A stretch of 64,000 nt of DNA from Silvibacterium acidisoli (lineage in GTDB: Bacteria > Acidobacteriota > Terriglobia > Terriglobales > Acidobacteriaceae): the NCBI GenBank assembly GCA_022870745.1, contig CP085323.1, positions 5,208,001 to 5,272,000 on the forward strand, written 5' to 3'. The number at the start of each line of letters is the position of its first letter. Position 1 is the first letter of the stretch. Shown here in pieces: positions 23,201-29,157 of this stretch. The position numbers were made by a program, and so were the translations under genes. Below the pieces are notes generated by a model. The model did no database searches and was not told where the DNA came from. It saw nothing but the letters and a program-made list of their open reading frames with translations.

Positions 23201-25024
23201 TCACAACACCTGCCCAACCGCCCGATGCGCTTCCATGATCGATGCGCGATGATCCATGATTCCGGACAGGTCGGAGTTGGCAAAAGCGACGCGCCCGAAC
23301 GGCTTCTGCCGCATCAGCTCCGCCGGGCCCGGTTTGCCATCCTTGCCGAAGAAGAAGCCTGGTTGCGGCGCAAGGTAAGCATGTCCCCAGCGATTGAGAA
23401 TGATCCCAGCCAGGTCGCGATGCGCGTCGAAGCCATAGCCGCTAAACATCTCAGAGAACTGGTCACGCAGCTGTTTCTCGTAGGCATTGAATGGCGTGGT
23501 CATCATCTGGTAGCGCCCCATGTTTACTTGCTCCAGCAGCGGCCGGCCGGGGTTTGAGAAAAGAATCTTTACCGTCAGAATGATCGGACTCTCCGGTGAG
23601 AGCTGCGGCGAAGCGCCTCCAAAGGTCGCAACACGCCGCACGGCAGTATAGTTGCCGAGTCCGCCGAACCACTGGAACTGGCTGATGCCCATCTTCGCCA
23701 GCGGCTTCCAGTTGCGCAGTGCGATATTGGCCATGATGCAAGGTGCGCGATAGAACTGCGCATAGGCATGGCGATATTCCGCAGGCAGATCACGCACCAT
23801 GCCGTTGATCGTCCAGCTGCCATTGGCGAGGATCACTTTGCGAGCGCGCGCCCGGTAAAGGCTGCCTTCGCGCAGATAAACGAGGTTCACATGCGGAGCA
23901 TGTGCGGCGTCACCTTCATGCTCGATTGAGATGACGGTCGAGCGGAGACGAATCCGCGTCGCTTTGTCTTCGGCGTCCAGCTCCGCAAAGTTCACACGCG
24001 ACCGGCAGATGTTCGCCATCGTCGCCGGACCAGGAATGGCATCGGGCAGCAGCGCCTTCACCATGTGTCGCGCTACCCCGGCATTGCCGCCGGGAAACAT
24101 CTGCGGGCCTTTCTCCGATTGCCATGGAAATAACAGATCGGCCGCATAGTCCGCGTATGCCGAGAGCGCATCGGCGCCAAGTCCCGAACCGCCTCCGCTC
24201 ACTGGCGACAGGTACTTGCGCACAGTCTCCCGGCTTAATCCGTGACGGGCAATGAGATCGTCTTCCAGCGTGATCGAGTCAAGATGGCGCGAGACGGTGT
24301 CGCCATGGCGCTGCGGCTTCGGAAGGTGATCGGGAACGCTCCTCATCGCCAGCAGCTCGCGCTTCGCCTGATCTGGAATGGGAGCGCCGGCCAGCTTTTT
24401 TCCCCAGGGATCGATGAGCCACTGTTTCTGCTGCGTGAAGTAGAAGCCGAAGTTGCTGCCGCCGCCTGCATACGGAGTGACGCCAGTGCCGATGCGATTG
24501 TCGTCCCGCTGATAGACAAATTGCTTCGGGTCGATTCCGATTGAGTCGTAGAAGTGCATAAGAAAACTGCCCGGCAACGGTTCAAACCACATCGCCGACC
24601 CCTGGCTGGCAATCAGCCGTTGGCCGTCGACCTCGAACTCGTTGCGCTTGGCCTCTCCGCCAAAGATTGGATGGTTCTCGAGTACAAGACAGGTCTTCTT
24701 CGCGTGCGTCGCGCGTTGGTAGAAAAGCGCGGCCGCCAATCCGCTGATGCCTCCGCCGACAACAACGCAGTCGTAGATCTCATGAGTGTCGATAACAGGC
24801 GCGGGGTTGCGCTCGAAGACATGATCGCGGATCGAATGCCCATCCGACATGACCTGGTGCACGTTGCCGTTCGCTCCGGCATAATCGCCGATGCCGGAGA
24901 AGCCATTCCAGTCCGGCTCGGCCATCAGTTGAAAGGGGCAGGCTGCGGTGAGCAGTGCTGCACCCGAGGCCATGAGGGTGCCATTCAGAAAATCGCGTCG
25001 AGTAATCTTCCCGGAGTCTGCCAT
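23201..25024 (-). CDS. Tat-exported FAD-dependent oxidoreductase, spermidine-dehydrogenase-like
   Basis: A protein of 607 residues. The Tat signal KITRRDFLNGTLMASGAALL is followed by a Cys. The dinucleotide-binding motif is CVVVGGGISGLAAALFY (about 86-102). Further flavoprotein features are FGGEAKRNEFEVDG and the C-terminal GRVAFANSDLSGIMDHRAS. Its overall pattern matches proteins named spermidine dehydrogenase or NAD(P)-binding oxidoreductase, which oxidise amines or related substrates in the periplasm; the substrate is not shown here. Just upstream, 25031-25057 carries the GntR/FadR-type operator sequence also found at the GHL6 locus. Confidence 0.82.
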   Translation of the reverse strand: MADSGKITRRDFLNGTLMASGAALLTAACPFQLMAEPDWNGFSGIGDYAGANGNVHQVMSDGHSIRDHVFERNPAPVIDTHEIYDCVVVGGGISGLAAALFYQRATHAKKTCLVLENHPIFGGEAKRNEFEVDGQRLIASQGSAMWFEPLPGSFLMHFYDSIGIDPKQFVYQRDDNRIGTGVTPYAGGGSNFGFYFTQQKQWLIDPWGKKLAGAPIPDQAKRELLAMRSVPDHLPKPQRHGDTVSRHLDSITLEDDLIARHGLSRETVRKYLSPVSGGGSGLGADALSAYADYAADLLFPWQSEKGPQMFPGGNAGVARHMVKALLPDAIPGPATMANICRSRVNFAELDAEDKATRIRLRSTVISIEHEGDAAHAPHVNLVYLREGSLYRARARKVILANGSWTINGMVRDLPAEYRHAYAQFYRAPCIMANIALRNWKPLAKMGISQFQWFGGLGNYTAVRRVATFGGASPQLSPESPIILTVKILFSNPGRPLLEQVNMGRYQMMTTPFNAYEKQLRDQFSEMFSGYGFDAHRDLAGIILNRWGHAYLAPQPGFFFGKDGKPGPAELMRQKPFGRVAFANSDLSGIMDHRASIMEAHRAVGQVL

Positions 25025-26004: not shown

Positions 26005-26655
26005 TTAGAAATTACCACCTGAGCTCTGCCGCACCAGTGAGAGAAACTCCGCGCGGGTGTTCTGCTTCTGGAAGACACCCACCATCGCCGAGGTTGCCGT
26101 CGAGGAGTTCTGCTTCTCGACGCCGCGCATCATCATGCACAGGTGCCGAGCCTCAATCACGACGCCAACGCCCTGGGGGTTGATCGCATCCTGGATCGCC
26201 TCCGCAATCTGCCGCGTCATGCGTTCCTGCACCTGCAGGCGGCGCGCGAAGACTTCAACCAGCCGCGGAATCTTGCTCAGCCCAATCACTTTGCCGTTAG
26301 GAATGTAGGCCACATGCACGCGTCCGAAGAAGGGCAGCATATGGTGCTCGCAGAGCGAGAACATCTCGATATCCTTGACGATCACCATTTCGTCGTAATC
26401 GACATCGAAGAGCGCGCCGCGCAGAATGGCCGTCGGATCTTCGTTGTAGCCCTTGGTAAGAAAAGTCATCGACTTCTCGACACGCTCAGGGGTGCGCACC
26501 AGCCCGTCACGCGTGGGATCAGCGTCAAAGCGGCGGATAATTTCGCGATAAATCTCCTGCGTAGAAACCGACTCAAGGCCCGTCGAGCCAATCAATTCGG
26601 ACTTCAATTCTCCTGCGCGTTCGTCAGGTGCCAGCGTCTTGTGATGATTCTTCAT
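26005..26655 (-). CDS. folE: GTP cyclohydrolase I
   Basis: A protein of 216 residues of the type-I (FolE) family. It converts GTP to 7,8-dihydroneopterin triphosphate, the first step to folate, biopterin-like and queuosine pterins. Zinc and active-site motifs are present: [18 protein letters not shown], with Cys and His ligands, followed by the [20 protein letters not shown] segment and [20 protein letters not shown] with the second Cys. Its start overlaps the stop of the upstream PTPS-like gene by four bases, as part of a three-gene coupled operon. That links it to a pterin product beyond folate. Confidence 0.95.
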
Positions 26656-27098
26656 TCCGCGCCTGCCTTTCTCTCTCTTGCCACCGGATATTCAAACGAG
26701 TTGTTCGAAGTCTCTTCGATCCGGACGGATACCAATTCAGCTTTGCCGAGCGCTCCGCGATCAACCGCGTGAGATAAGAGGCGATAAACCTCGAGGTTCA
26801 GATTCTCTGTGGTCGGCACTTCTTTTTCAAAGCGCTCGAATGTGTTCAGGTTGGTGTGATCGAAGCGCTCGACAATCTCCGTGTTGACACAAGCATCCAG
26901 CTTCACCAGGTCGCACACCATGCCTGTAACACTGTCCACTTCTCCGCCAACGATCACTTCAACCACATAGTTATGCCCGTGGCCGAAAGGATTATTGCAC
27001 TTGCCGAAAGCCGCGCGATTCTCAGCCTCGCTCAGGCTCTCGGCGTGCAGACGATGCGAAGCGCTCAGCCGGTATCGGCGTCCCAGGTAGGCCCTCAT
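26652..27098 (-). CDS. PTPS-like enzyme, second paralogue (6-pyruvoyl/6-carboxy-tetrahydropterin synthase family)
   Basis: A protein of 148 residues. Zinc ligands are His in LSASHRL and the two His of HGHNY; the catalytic Cys lies in [14 protein letters not shown], five residues before HGH as in eukaryotic 6-pyruvoyl-tetrahydropterin synthase, where QueD has three. The Asp-His pair [24 protein letters not shown] and the Glu in [13 protein letters not shown] complete the active site. It is coupled by four-base overlaps to the paralogue upstream and to folE downstream. It could make 6-pyruvoyl- or 6-carboxy-tetrahydropterin. It differs from the first copy by a longer, basic C-terminus. Confidence 0.88.
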
Positions 27099-27505
27099 GC
27101 TTCACCGTAATAGTCAGCGAAGAGGTCGGCCATCTCGAAGACGCGCACGCGATGCAGCTTTGCGCCGGGAACCTTGCCGTCAAGCCGCTTCCAGATTGCG
27201 ATGGCCATGTTCTCGGTAGTCGGCATCGCGGTCTTGAACTCCGGCACTTCGAAGTTCAGATGGCGGTGGTCGTAAATGCTCACCACCTCGCGCTCCATCA
27301 CGTCTTTCAGCTCTTTGAGGTCCACCACGAAGCCGGTCACCGGGTCCACTTCACCGGCCACCGTGACCTCGAGCGTGTAATTGTGCCCGTGACCATTACG
27401 ATTCGAGCACTTCCCGAAGACGCGGAGGTTTTCCTCTTCGCTCCAGGCGTCGTTCCAGTAGAAGTGCGATGCGGAAAACTCGGCTTTGCGGGTCAACAGG
27501 ATCAT
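27095..27505 (-). CDS. PTPS-like enzyme, first paralogue (6-pyruvoyl/6-carboxy-tetrahydropterin synthase family)
   Basis: A protein of 136 residues and the first gene of the operon. It looks strikingly like animal PTPS: FSASHFYWND, EEENLRVFGKCSNRNGHGHN, EVDPVTGFVVDLKELKDVM, YDHRHLNF and MPTTENMAIAIWKRL. The zinc His set, the Cys five residues before HGH, the Asp-His pair and the C-terminal Glu (VRVFEMADLFADYY) are all intact, so it should be active. In QueD enzymes the Cys precedes HGH by three residues. The role may be tetrahydrobiopterin-like or queuosine synthesis. It overlaps the next gene by four bases. Confidence 0.88.
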   Translation of the reverse strand: MILLTRKAEFSASHFYWNDAWSEEENLRVFGKCSNRNGHGHNYTLEVTVAGEVDPVTGFVVDLKELKDVMEREVVSIYDHRHLNFEVPEFKTAMPTTENMAIAIWKRLDGKVPGAKLHRVRVFEMADLFADYYGEA

Positions 27506-27557: not shown

Positions 27558-28613
27558 TCAGCGATTCCGGCTCGCATATTCGCGTCCCTTCCAGTTCACG
27601 CGCCTGGTTACGTTGTGATGAAACCAGCTCTGGTAGAGCAGATATGCAAAGAGCGGCAATGCCAGAGGAGTAACCGCGCAATCAGCCGCCGGAAAATTCG
27701 ATTTCGCCACCCGCCGGTAAAATCGCCACAGGTTGCGCGCCCAGATCAGCACAATCGCCCACACAAAGAGCGGCCGCAGGTTGTGCTGGTACTCCCATAA
27801 AGCGAGCACCGGCAGGCCCACCAGCAACGCAAGATCGAGCATGCGCCAGGCAGCCAGCATAAGGGTATTTCCGAAGAGCAATGCCAGGTTCTTCGTCCAG
27901 CCTTCAACCATCGCACCGAACGTACGATACATCCGCGTCGCAACCGCCTCCGGAGCATACCGGAAGCGCAGGCCCAGCTTTCGCCGCTTGACAATCTCTG
28001 CCAGAGCAACGTCTTCGAGCACAGTGTCTTTTAGCGCCTCGTGCCCGCCAACAGCGAAGTACGCCTCGCGAGTGATCATCAGGAACTGCCCATTCGCAGC
28101 CGCCAGCCGCGATTGCGGATCGGAGACCTTCGCGGGAGGATACGCCAGCGCCAATTCGCTGAAGACGAGCGGCATCAGCGCCCCCTGCCAGAAGCCGGTC
28201 ACGATCTGGCGCGGCGAATACGAAAGCATGGCTGCGTGATGACGCTCGGCCTCGACCATGGCAATGCTCAGGTGGCCGGGTTCATGCAGGGTGTCCGCAT
28301 CGGTAAACAGCAGCCACTCGCCTTTCGCGGCCTTCGCACCGGCCCAGACGGCATTTGCTTTGCCCGTCCATCCCTTTTCGAGAGCAGGAGCCGGCATTAC
28401 CGTCACTCCGCCAATACCCTGCGCGATCTTGCGAGTGCGATCGGTGGAGTGGTCGTCTATCAGCAGAATCTCCCAGTCGATACCCAGTTCCCAACCGGGC
28501 TCCGATTGCGAGGCGAGCGATTGCAGGCAAGCGCCCACGCAGTCTTCTTCGTTGCGGGCGGGCACGATTACAGAGAGCTTCAGAGGGCGGGTCGATTCGA
28601 GAGAGGCATCCAC
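27558..28613 (-). CDS. Glycosyltransferase family 2, HpnB-like
   Basis: A protein of 351 residues. GT-A fold: LSVIVPARNEEDCVGACLQS, then IDDHSTD, the DxD-type FTDADTLHEPGH and a VLEDVALAEIVKRRKL acceptor region. C-terminal hydrophobic helices (LALLVGLPVLALWEY; LFVWAIVLIWARNLW) anchor it in the membrane. The layout matches the hopene-associated HpnB/CrtQ-like transferases. No hopanoid genes (shc, hpn) are in the window, so the lipid acceptor is a guess. The GTG start at 28613 is only 25 bases from the divergent GTG of the TlpA-like gene. Confidence 0.85.
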   Translation of the reverse strand: MDASLESTRPLKLSVIVPARNEEDCVGACLQSLASQSEPGWELGIDWEILLIDDHSTDRTRKIAQGIGGVTVMPAPALEKGWTGKANAVWAGAKAAKGEWLLFTDADTLHEPGHLSIAMVEAERHHAAMLSYSPRQIVTGFWQGALMPLVFSELALAYPPAKVSDPQSRLAAANGQFLMITREAYFAVGGHEALKDTVLEDVALAEIVKRRKLGLRFRYAPEAVATRMYRTFGAMVEGWTKNLALLFGNTLMLAAWRMLDLALLVGLPVLALWEYQHNLRPLFVWAIVLIWARNLWRFYRRVAKSNFPAADCAVTPLALPLFAYLLYQSWFHHNVTRRVNWKGREYASRNR

Positions 28614-28638
28614 GGCTGTCGGCCTTTATTATAGAAAA

Positions 28639-29157
28639 GTGATTGCTTCCCGAGCCTCTCTGCTTCGCATCGGAACGGCAGTTCTCCTGCCCGCGCTCTC
28701 TCTTACGCTGACCGGCCTGGCAGGATGCGACCGCGGCGACCATCCCGCGCAGGTCGGCACCGCGGCTCCCGGCTTCACCATTACCGATGGCGCACAGACC
28801 GTCCGCCTCTCCGATTACCACGGCAAGGTGGTGCTGCTGAACTTCTGGGCATCATGGTGCGCGCCCTGCATCGAAGAGCTGCCATCCCTTATCGCCCTTC
28901 AAAAGCAGATGCCCGAGGTGACGGTAATCGCCGTTAATTTCGAGGACGAGGAAGACTCCTACCGGCAGTTCCTTAAAGACAATCACGTCGACCTGCTGAC
29001 CATTCGCGATGCTTCGGAAAAGAGCAACCACGCCTACGGCACCACCCGGCCGCCGGAGACCTATGTGATCGATAAGCAAGGCATCATCCGTAGAAAGTTC
29101 ATCGGCCCCCAGCAGTGGACCGGCCCGGAGATCGAAAACTACCTGCGCAATCTCTAG
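28639..29157 (+). CDS. TlpA-like thioredoxin-fold lipoprotein
   Basis: A protein of 172 residues from GTG 28639. The signal sequence ends in a lipobox (LTGLAG, then Cys31), so it is a membrane-anchored lipoprotein. A redoxin/TlpA domain follows: VGTAAPGFTITDGAQTVRLS, VVLLNFWASWCAPCIEELPS with the WCAPC active site, and PPETYVIDKQGIIRRKFIGP with the cis-Pro. It likely acts as a periplasmic thiol reductase, for example for cytochrome c maturation or disulfide rescue. The frame is open far upstream as an antisense shadow of the glycosyltransferase; GTG is the only conventional start near the signal peptide. Confidence 0.88.
   Translation: MIASRASLLRIGTAVLLPALSLTLTGLAGCDRGDHPAQVGTAAPGFTITDGAQTVRLSDYHGKVVLLNFWASWCAPCIEELPSLIALQKQMPEVTVIAVNFEDEEDSYRQFLKDNHVDLLTIRDASEKSNHAYGTTRPPETYVIDKQGIIRRKFIGPQQWTGPEIENYLRNL

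Follow-up and report, generated by a model that had tools for sequence, protein, structure and literature searches.

Why would a bacterium keep two different PTPS-like genes directly beside folE? This question is raised by the soil bacterium Silvibacterium acidisoli, whose 5.36 Mb genome is one contig and from which we analysed a single stretch of 64,000 nucleotides (the window). An initial annotation of the window had described folE and two such genes, here named PTPS-A and PTPS-B (A and B), as overlapping serially by ATGA, and both overlaps were indeed read in the sequence (Table 1). The FolE protein scored 254.7 bits against TIGR00063 (cut-off 181.6) and 250.5 bits against Pfam PF01227. What is new here is a reason for the two copies: the comparisons described below suggest that they are interlocking halves of one enzyme, not two enzymes.

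Table 1. Positions, within the window, of the folE-linked PTPS genes of Silvibacterium acidisoli, their overlaps and their catalytic codons.
Feature	Position	Strand	Remark
PTPS-A, PTPS-II paralogue, 136 aa	27095..27505	-	putative Asp-His donor subunit; full catalytic set here
PTPS-B, PTPS-II paralogue, 148 aa	26652..27098	-	putative Cys/zinc/pterin-anchor subunit; complete here
folE, GTP cyclohydrolase I, 216 aa	26005..26655	-	TIGR00063, PF01227
ATGA, PTPS-A stop/PTPS-B start overlap, 4 bases	27095..27098	-	sequence
ATGA, PTPS-B stop/folE start overlap, 4 bases	26652..26655	-	sequence
A Cys33 codon (= rat Cys42 position)	27407..27409	-	
A Asp79-His80 codons (= rat Asp88-His89 positions)	27266..27271	-	
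B Cys34 codon (= rat Cys42 position)	26997..26999	-	
B Asp80-His81 codons (= rat Asp88-His89 positions)	26856..26861	-	intact here

In PMC5041015, PTPS-II is marked by CxxxxxHGH, PTPS-I by CxxxHGH and PTPS-III by ExxHGH, and CExxHGH is given as a hybrid that serves both folate and queuosine. Both A and B have CxxxxxHGH, the PTPS-II motif, and ExxHGH is absent from both; five residues separate the Cys from HGH in A and B, against three in the aligned E. coli QueD chain. The two copies, 42% identical over 135 columns, also have PTTEN, the Asp-His pair and the C-terminal Glu in common. Pfam PF01242 gave 126.0 bits for A and 100.1 bits for B (cut-off 22.4). The NCBIfam QueD equivalog gave 70.7 and 61.8 bits, both below its cut-off of 89.25, and neither copy thus combines CxxxHGH with a score above this cut-off, as QueD (PTPS-I) does by our definition. 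Scores against the broader NCBIfam PTPS/QueD model TIGR00039 (84.7 for A, 82.9 for B) also lay below cut-off (125.5), which counts against a simple label for either protein.

Structural comparison and phylogeny pointed the same way as the motif. The best PDB match was rat PTPS for A (3.5e-37) as well as for B (1e-27). AlphaFold2 models, for which the alignments comprised 39/81 rows each, reached a pLDDT of 95.5 for A and 92.9 for B, and rat and human PTPS were the top structural matches of both, with Foldseek TM values, taken by query length, of 0.94 for A and 0.87 for B against the rat structure 1gtq. In a phylogeny of 68 hand-picked rows, A and B were placed within the PTPS-II part and outside QueD. 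The motif, the tree and the best PDB and structural matches therefore bear out the animal-type PTPS pattern, unlike that of QueD, which had been noted in the initial annotation, while the first half of the scenario that it had set against itself, both copies inside canonical QueD, fails on the tree. Together, these data support the assignment of A and B to PTPS-II, predicted by class to make 6-pyruvoyl-tetrahydropterin, and not to QueD.

The remainder of the genome is consistent with a separate role for the folE-linked pair. Its sole other PTPS match, located outside the window, has the motif CEYPHGH, which is the CExxHGH of the hybrid I/III type of PMC5041015. This third copy scored 105 bits with the QueD model, above the cut-off of 89.25, and 91.9 with TIGR00039, below 125.5. 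A queE-like gene starts four bases after it (its best models are QueE, but it reaches none of their cut-offs, the highest score being 220.3 where 300 is required), and queC lies ∼15 kb away. Genome-wide searches thus placed queC and the queE-like gene outside the window and found no FolB, in line with the earlier remark that QueC, QueE and FolB are absent from the window. FolB was likewise not found in the other 10 sampled genomes of the family, and was present in 28 of 119 genomes of the phylum. Judged by its published motif and its context, the third copy is the most natural choice for a queuosine and folate enzyme, and the folE-linked pair would then serve another role. The earlier proposal that the product of this pair differs from ordinary folate is therefore likely on the grounds of motif and context.

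Two alternatives bear directly on this point. According to the first, A and B would both be QueD-like enzymes of queuosine synthesis; they belong to the same superfamily and do match the QueD model, yet below the cut-off that the copy beside the queE-like gene exceeds, and on the tree they fall within the PTPS-II part, which makes this extremely improbable. According to the second, one of the two copies would substitute for the missing FolB in folate synthesis, a PTPS-III role. The absence of FolB from the 11 family genomes sampled, S. acidisoli included, and the adjacent folE speak for it, but ExxHGH occurs in neither A nor B, the third copy has CExxHGH, and genomes G005 and G008 have FolB and nevertheless carry PTPS-II. 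We consider this substitution very unlikely. Both roles were rejected on the grounds of motif, cut-off and the presence of the third copy. Elsewhere in the phylum, FolB adjoins a PTPS gene in six FolB-positive genomes (G003, G033, G046, G059, G082 and G101), and additional PTPS copies with ExxHGH and no Cys at position 42, which fit the published PTPS-III motif, were seen at loci L289, L290 and L294 (family f33), L279 (f67) and L288 (f79).

We then compared the locus with its counterparts in other genomes. Relatives were obtained from a scan made with the A alignment, of which the best 80 of 577 were taken and are thus close relatives by choice. Nearly all of these best 80 of 577 are labelled Acidobacteriota, with Granulicella, Edaphobacter, Terriglobus, Acidipila and Acidicapsa among those named, L091 being the lone one labelled Verrucomicrobia. 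Within this best 80 of 577, A and B were adjacent and in the same order at all 80 loci and folE came next after B at 79, the exception (L130) reaching its contig end soon after B; this arrangement is therefore not due to chance. Based on script-chosen starts, A and B overlapped at 53 of these best 80 of 577 loci.

The surroundings of the cluster are also partly shared. A family-2 glycosyltransferase gene, HpnB/CruG-like but below cut-offs, lies immediately upstream of PTPS-A (window 27558-28613, minus strand), with a TlpA/ResA-like thioredoxin gene divergent from it (28258-29157, plus strand). Among the best 80 of 577 loci, the glycosyltransferase was upstream in 67 and a thioredoxin-like relative was upstream of A in 70. 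In the distant genome G064 another glycosyltransferase (30% identity) lies between two PTPS genes (L160, 5635-6816). Both a functional link of the glycosyltransferase to the pterin, perhaps as a pterin glycosylase, and old synteny are possible. On the other side of the cluster, an FAD-dependent oxidoreductase gene with a twin-arginine-like start (RRDFLNG) adjoins truB (window 23201-25024, minus strand); its NCBIfam matches are weak and below cut-offs.

We next inspected the catalytic positions of the two proteins. Throughout, Asp88, His89 and Glu133 are given the roles that we take them to have in rat PTPS. Rat numbering otherwise follows PMC2229834 for Cys42, of PMC7546909 for Thr105, Thr106 and Glu107, and of PMC10767420 for the zinc ligands His23, His48 and His50. 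The count comprised 80 rows, i.e. the window plus 79 loci of the best 80 of 577, L130 being dropped as its folE is cut off. A kept Cys42, Asp88 and His89 in all 80 of these rows; in a larger alignment of 81 rows from the same scan (best 80 of 577), Cys42 was present in 81/81 rows of A and 81/81 of B, and Asp88 and His89 in 81/81 rows of A. In the 80 rows (the window and 79 of the best 80 of 577), B kept Cys42, His48, His50, Glu107 and Glu133 without exception and His23 in 79, the remaining row being gapped, while its Asp88 was kept in 73 and its His89 in 64, with at least one of the two missing in 19. Many different residues replaced the lost ones, and on a quick tree of A and FolE the losses amounted to 13 changes, of which starred branches forced 10. 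Another sample from the window's family, 23 genomes that overlap in part with the first set, gave a complete A in 23/23 and a B altered at Asp88 or His89 in 5. As judged from these alignments, constraint on B is maintained over the Cys half but relaxed over the Asp-His half.

The architecture of PTPS offers a frame for this asymmetry. In 1995 Burgisser reportedly named an intersubunit catalytic triad for PTPS, and PMC7546909 describes PTPS as a dimer of trimers in which each active site lies between three adjacent monomers. In our reading, Cys42 and Asp88-His89 would be contributed by different subunits. With such an intersubunit site, a heteromer is predicted to have one partner fixed on Cys and the other on Asp-His, and the pattern in A and B fits. 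Since both subunits have full residue sets in S. acidisoli, the window would represent the least reduced state.

More reduced states were found outside the window's family. The matches came from a search of 396 genomes of the phylum with a fused protein as query and a family-model search of 32 chosen genomes; only PTPS-II-like domains were tabulated, some other subfamilies being removed by motif and the window's family being left out, and the short-motif cases G156 B, the f77 domains and L043 A were entered by hand. Among the matches listed, 16 genomes of eight families (f13, f6, f77, f52, f33, f67, f79 and f55) had a copy lacking Cys42 but having Asp-His, a number that is not a census and for which Asp-His in the Cys-less copy was a selection criterion. 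The partner of this copy kept Cys42 in 16/16 of these listed genomes and lacked His89 in 14, with Asp88 gone too in 8; the Cys-less A also lacked the pterin-anchoring Glu in 10 of the 16. The Fisher value for this table, which ignores relatedness, was 3.8e-6, and counted by family among the matches listed, the Asp-His pair was damaged in 7 of the 8 families with a Cys-less partner. The partners are located on separate contigs in the draft genomes of f33, f67 and f79, where the copy without Cys additionally lacks one zinc histidine as well as the C-terminal Glu.

Genomes with a lone PTPS-II behaved differently, as both halves were present in 17 of 18. This number was reached from a class of 20 by removing G366, where an upstream partner would lie past the contig end, and G064, where the partner has lost both features; in the lone genomes G032, G058 and G172 the other copy is not PTPS-II. 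The exception is G349, where His89 is replaced by Cys and a PTPS-II partner was not found.

In part of the 16 genomes the two halves are joined in one protein. Among the matches listed, two-domain A-B fusions with the same split of Cys and Asp-His were present in six of the 16 genomes (five of f13, plus G005). Three-domain single chains occur in G374 and G356, with two Asp-His domains followed by one Cys domain; such a chain may represent an entire trimer within a single polypeptide. At L190 (1486-2712, minus strand) and L191 (1480-2871, minus strand), three-domain PTPS chains directly adjoin a reductase gene.

The phylogeny relates these forms to the window's genes. One group united the 15 B copies with six C-terminal domains of fusions and with two of the three triple-fusion domains (94/91, unstarred), and one clade (100/98, starred) comprised 12 A copies from the taxonomic order of S. 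acidisoli. The f16 A copies and the N-terminal fusion domains were not firmly joined to this clade, and the first domains of the G005 and f77 fusions lay outside the PTPS-II part on long branches flagged unreliable. Judging from the tree, A and B likely arose by an early duplication, and A may have more than one origin.

With these data, the most obvious competing view can be weighed, namely that A and B are PTPS-II isozymes that act independently of each other as homohexamers and are both retained for dosage or for different regulation. Every catalytic residue is present in both copies in the window and in most relatives, and the f16 pairs are complete in 4/4 genomes (the A of G016 with a shortened Cys-HGH spacing). 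For S. acidisoli in particular, the complete B means that separate homohexamers are possible. However, repeated loss of Asp-His from a B that stays fixed at Cys, the HGH histidines and Glu is odd for a free-standing enzyme as well as for a dying gene, and the isozyme view sits poorly with the fusions showing the complementary split and with the A-B order at 80/80 of the best 80 of 577 loci. We therefore regard it as unlikely, though deserving to be taken seriously.

Our preferred reading, which we hold to be reasonably probable, is that A and B form one heteromeric PTPS with cross-subunit active sites, fed by FolE and followed by a reductase that leads to tetrahydrobiopterin or a relative of it. 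FolE would provide dihydroneopterin triphosphate, which the A/B enzyme would convert into 6-pyruvoyl-tetrahydropterin in active sites that span the subunit interfaces. What such a site would require is the B Cys, together with zinc and the pterin-anchoring Glu, combined with the A Asp-His. Reduction to tetrahydrobiopterin or a related pterin would be the task of a short-chain reductase, whose gene joins the cluster in several lineages. Behind this scheme stand, as observations, the gene order, the motif class, the pattern of decay, the fusions and the clustered reductases; physical association of A and B, the composition and symmetry of their complex, its reaction and the final pterin are inferred from them.

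For the phylum as a whole we somewhat favour the view that Acidobacteriota PTPS is an obligate heteromer, in which Asp-His comes from one paralogue and Cys, together with zinc and pterin binding, from its partner, and that the phylum preserves stages of reduction. These stages would be complete pairs as in the window, a decaying B, a Cys-less A (in some cases also without a zinc histidine and Glu), two-domain fusions and the three-domain chain. Several observations count against a heteromer. The A Cys is fixed in 80/80 rows (best 80 of 577 set), which a strictly one-sided split would not need. Apart from G349, the genome G064 has one complete copy plus one without both halves, f55 has a Cys-less A with a complete B, and the first domains of the G005 and f77 fusions are outlying.

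The initial annotation had also considered divided labour between the copies along a two-step route. Divided labour fits well with two subunits that share active sites, as indicated by decay, split and fusions, rather than with a two-step route. In such a route one pterin would undergo two distinct reactions, one by A and one by B, for instance PTPS chemistry and then a side-chain rearrangement. The two proteins do differ at positions nearly fixed within each, e.g. rat 17, 25, 68, 76 and 132, and in its C-terminal region A does not resemble animal PTPS, but no residue indicates new chemistry. Moreover, the A of the reduced lineages is without Cys in 16/16 genomes (by definition of the set) and without Glu in 10/16, and is thus an unlikely second enzyme on its own. 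This makes the two-step route quite unlikely.

The heteromer reading sets the pair apart from the systems that resemble it most. Animal PTPS (rat 1gtq/1b66, human 3i2b) shares the fold, CxxxxxHGH, the zinc histidines, Cys, Asp-His, TTEN and the C-terminal Glu with A and B; it is a hexamer of identical subunits according to PMC10767420, whereas here a diverged gene pair decays in a complementary manner in relatives, which argues against a homohexameric PTPS. Synechococcus sp. PCC 7942, as described in PMC5041015, resembles S. acidisoli in having a bacterial PTPS-II plus a separate PTPS-I in one genome, but a single PTPS-II is described there, unlike the pair reported here. QueD and the PTPS-I/III hybrid (CExxHGH) are of the same superfamily, and by its motif and its score over the QueD cut-off the third copy of the genome belongs with them; they differ from A and B in having three rather than five residues between Cys and HGH and in serving other pathways. 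In the openly licensed literature, we found no direct paper on a heteromeric PTPS or on the allotment of its residues between subunits. If the reading is true, a homomeric metabolic enzyme has turned into an obligate heteromer, with its intersubunit site split between genes many times, which would lend evolutionary support to the catalytic triad proposed for animal PTPS and help to correct labels that merge these paralogues.

The final product was approached through the genes for reductases and pterin users. According to PMC5041015, tetrahydrobiopterin synthesis takes three steps, by FolE, PTPS and a reductase. A short-chain reductase (SDR) gene followed folE at 15 of the best 80 of 577 loci, and also at L039 and L041; the gap between reductase and folE was ∼0.8 kb in L119 and ∼1 kb in L133. 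In f16, a different SDR precedes A at four loci, one of them cut. In the f13 locus L226, genes for the fused PTPS, folE and an SDR are consecutive, with mechanical frames overlapping; at the corresponding place in f13, weak SDR matches were seen in L225 and L231 and none in L057 and L230, and the sequence of L229 ends there. In f77, an SDR directly adjoins the triple fusion in both genomes. The cluster reductases that were scanned are generic by profile. In a comparison of their profile with the PDB, the sepiapterin reductase 2bd0 of Chlorobium tepidum matched over nearly the full length of the profile with 145.3 bits but ranked 26 among general SDRs, and the match is therefore not diagnostic and does not set the function of the cluster reductases.

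At the locus in the window itself, this reductase gene is absent. Among 44 SDR matches in the S. acidisoli genome, identity to the cluster reductases was at most 38% and none was a clear equivalent. Identities among the cluster reductases of the taxonomic order to which S. acidisoli belongs were 44-56% for most and 73% for one pair. The f77 reductases, with 35-44% identity to them, stand no nearer to this group, and a functional equivalent may therefore exist among the SDRs of S. acidisoli. The sepiapterin reductase model TIGR01500 had no match over its cut-off in this genome, nor did any of 14 control genomes pass. Aromatic amino acid hydroxylase (PF00351) and NO synthase (PF02898) were not found in the S. 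acidisoli genome, and a pterin carbinolamine dehydratase is present but not decisive. PF00351 occurred in 29 of 119 genomes of the phylum and 4 of 11 of the window's family; being absent from the genome itself, it was rejected as an explanation of the pair. The tetrahydrobiopterin-like product proposed in the initial annotation thus gains from the cluster SDRs of several lineages and loses from the lack, in the own genome, of a clear reductase, PF00351 and PF02898. The comparison across relatives suggests that the A/B pair probably makes a tetrahydrobiopterin-like compound. If so, a tetrahydrobiopterin-type pathway is predicted in a major soil phylum; in the openly licensed literature, we found no paper that combines biopterin and acidobacteria in its title or opening abstract.

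Finally, in family f22 (G027, G040, G053, G065, G087, G097, G106 and G115) matches to biopterin-dependent hydroxylases came in two partial pieces. Each pair of pieces lies in frames of one length (530-676 aa), which suggests an insertion or a divergent middle in these hydroxylases.
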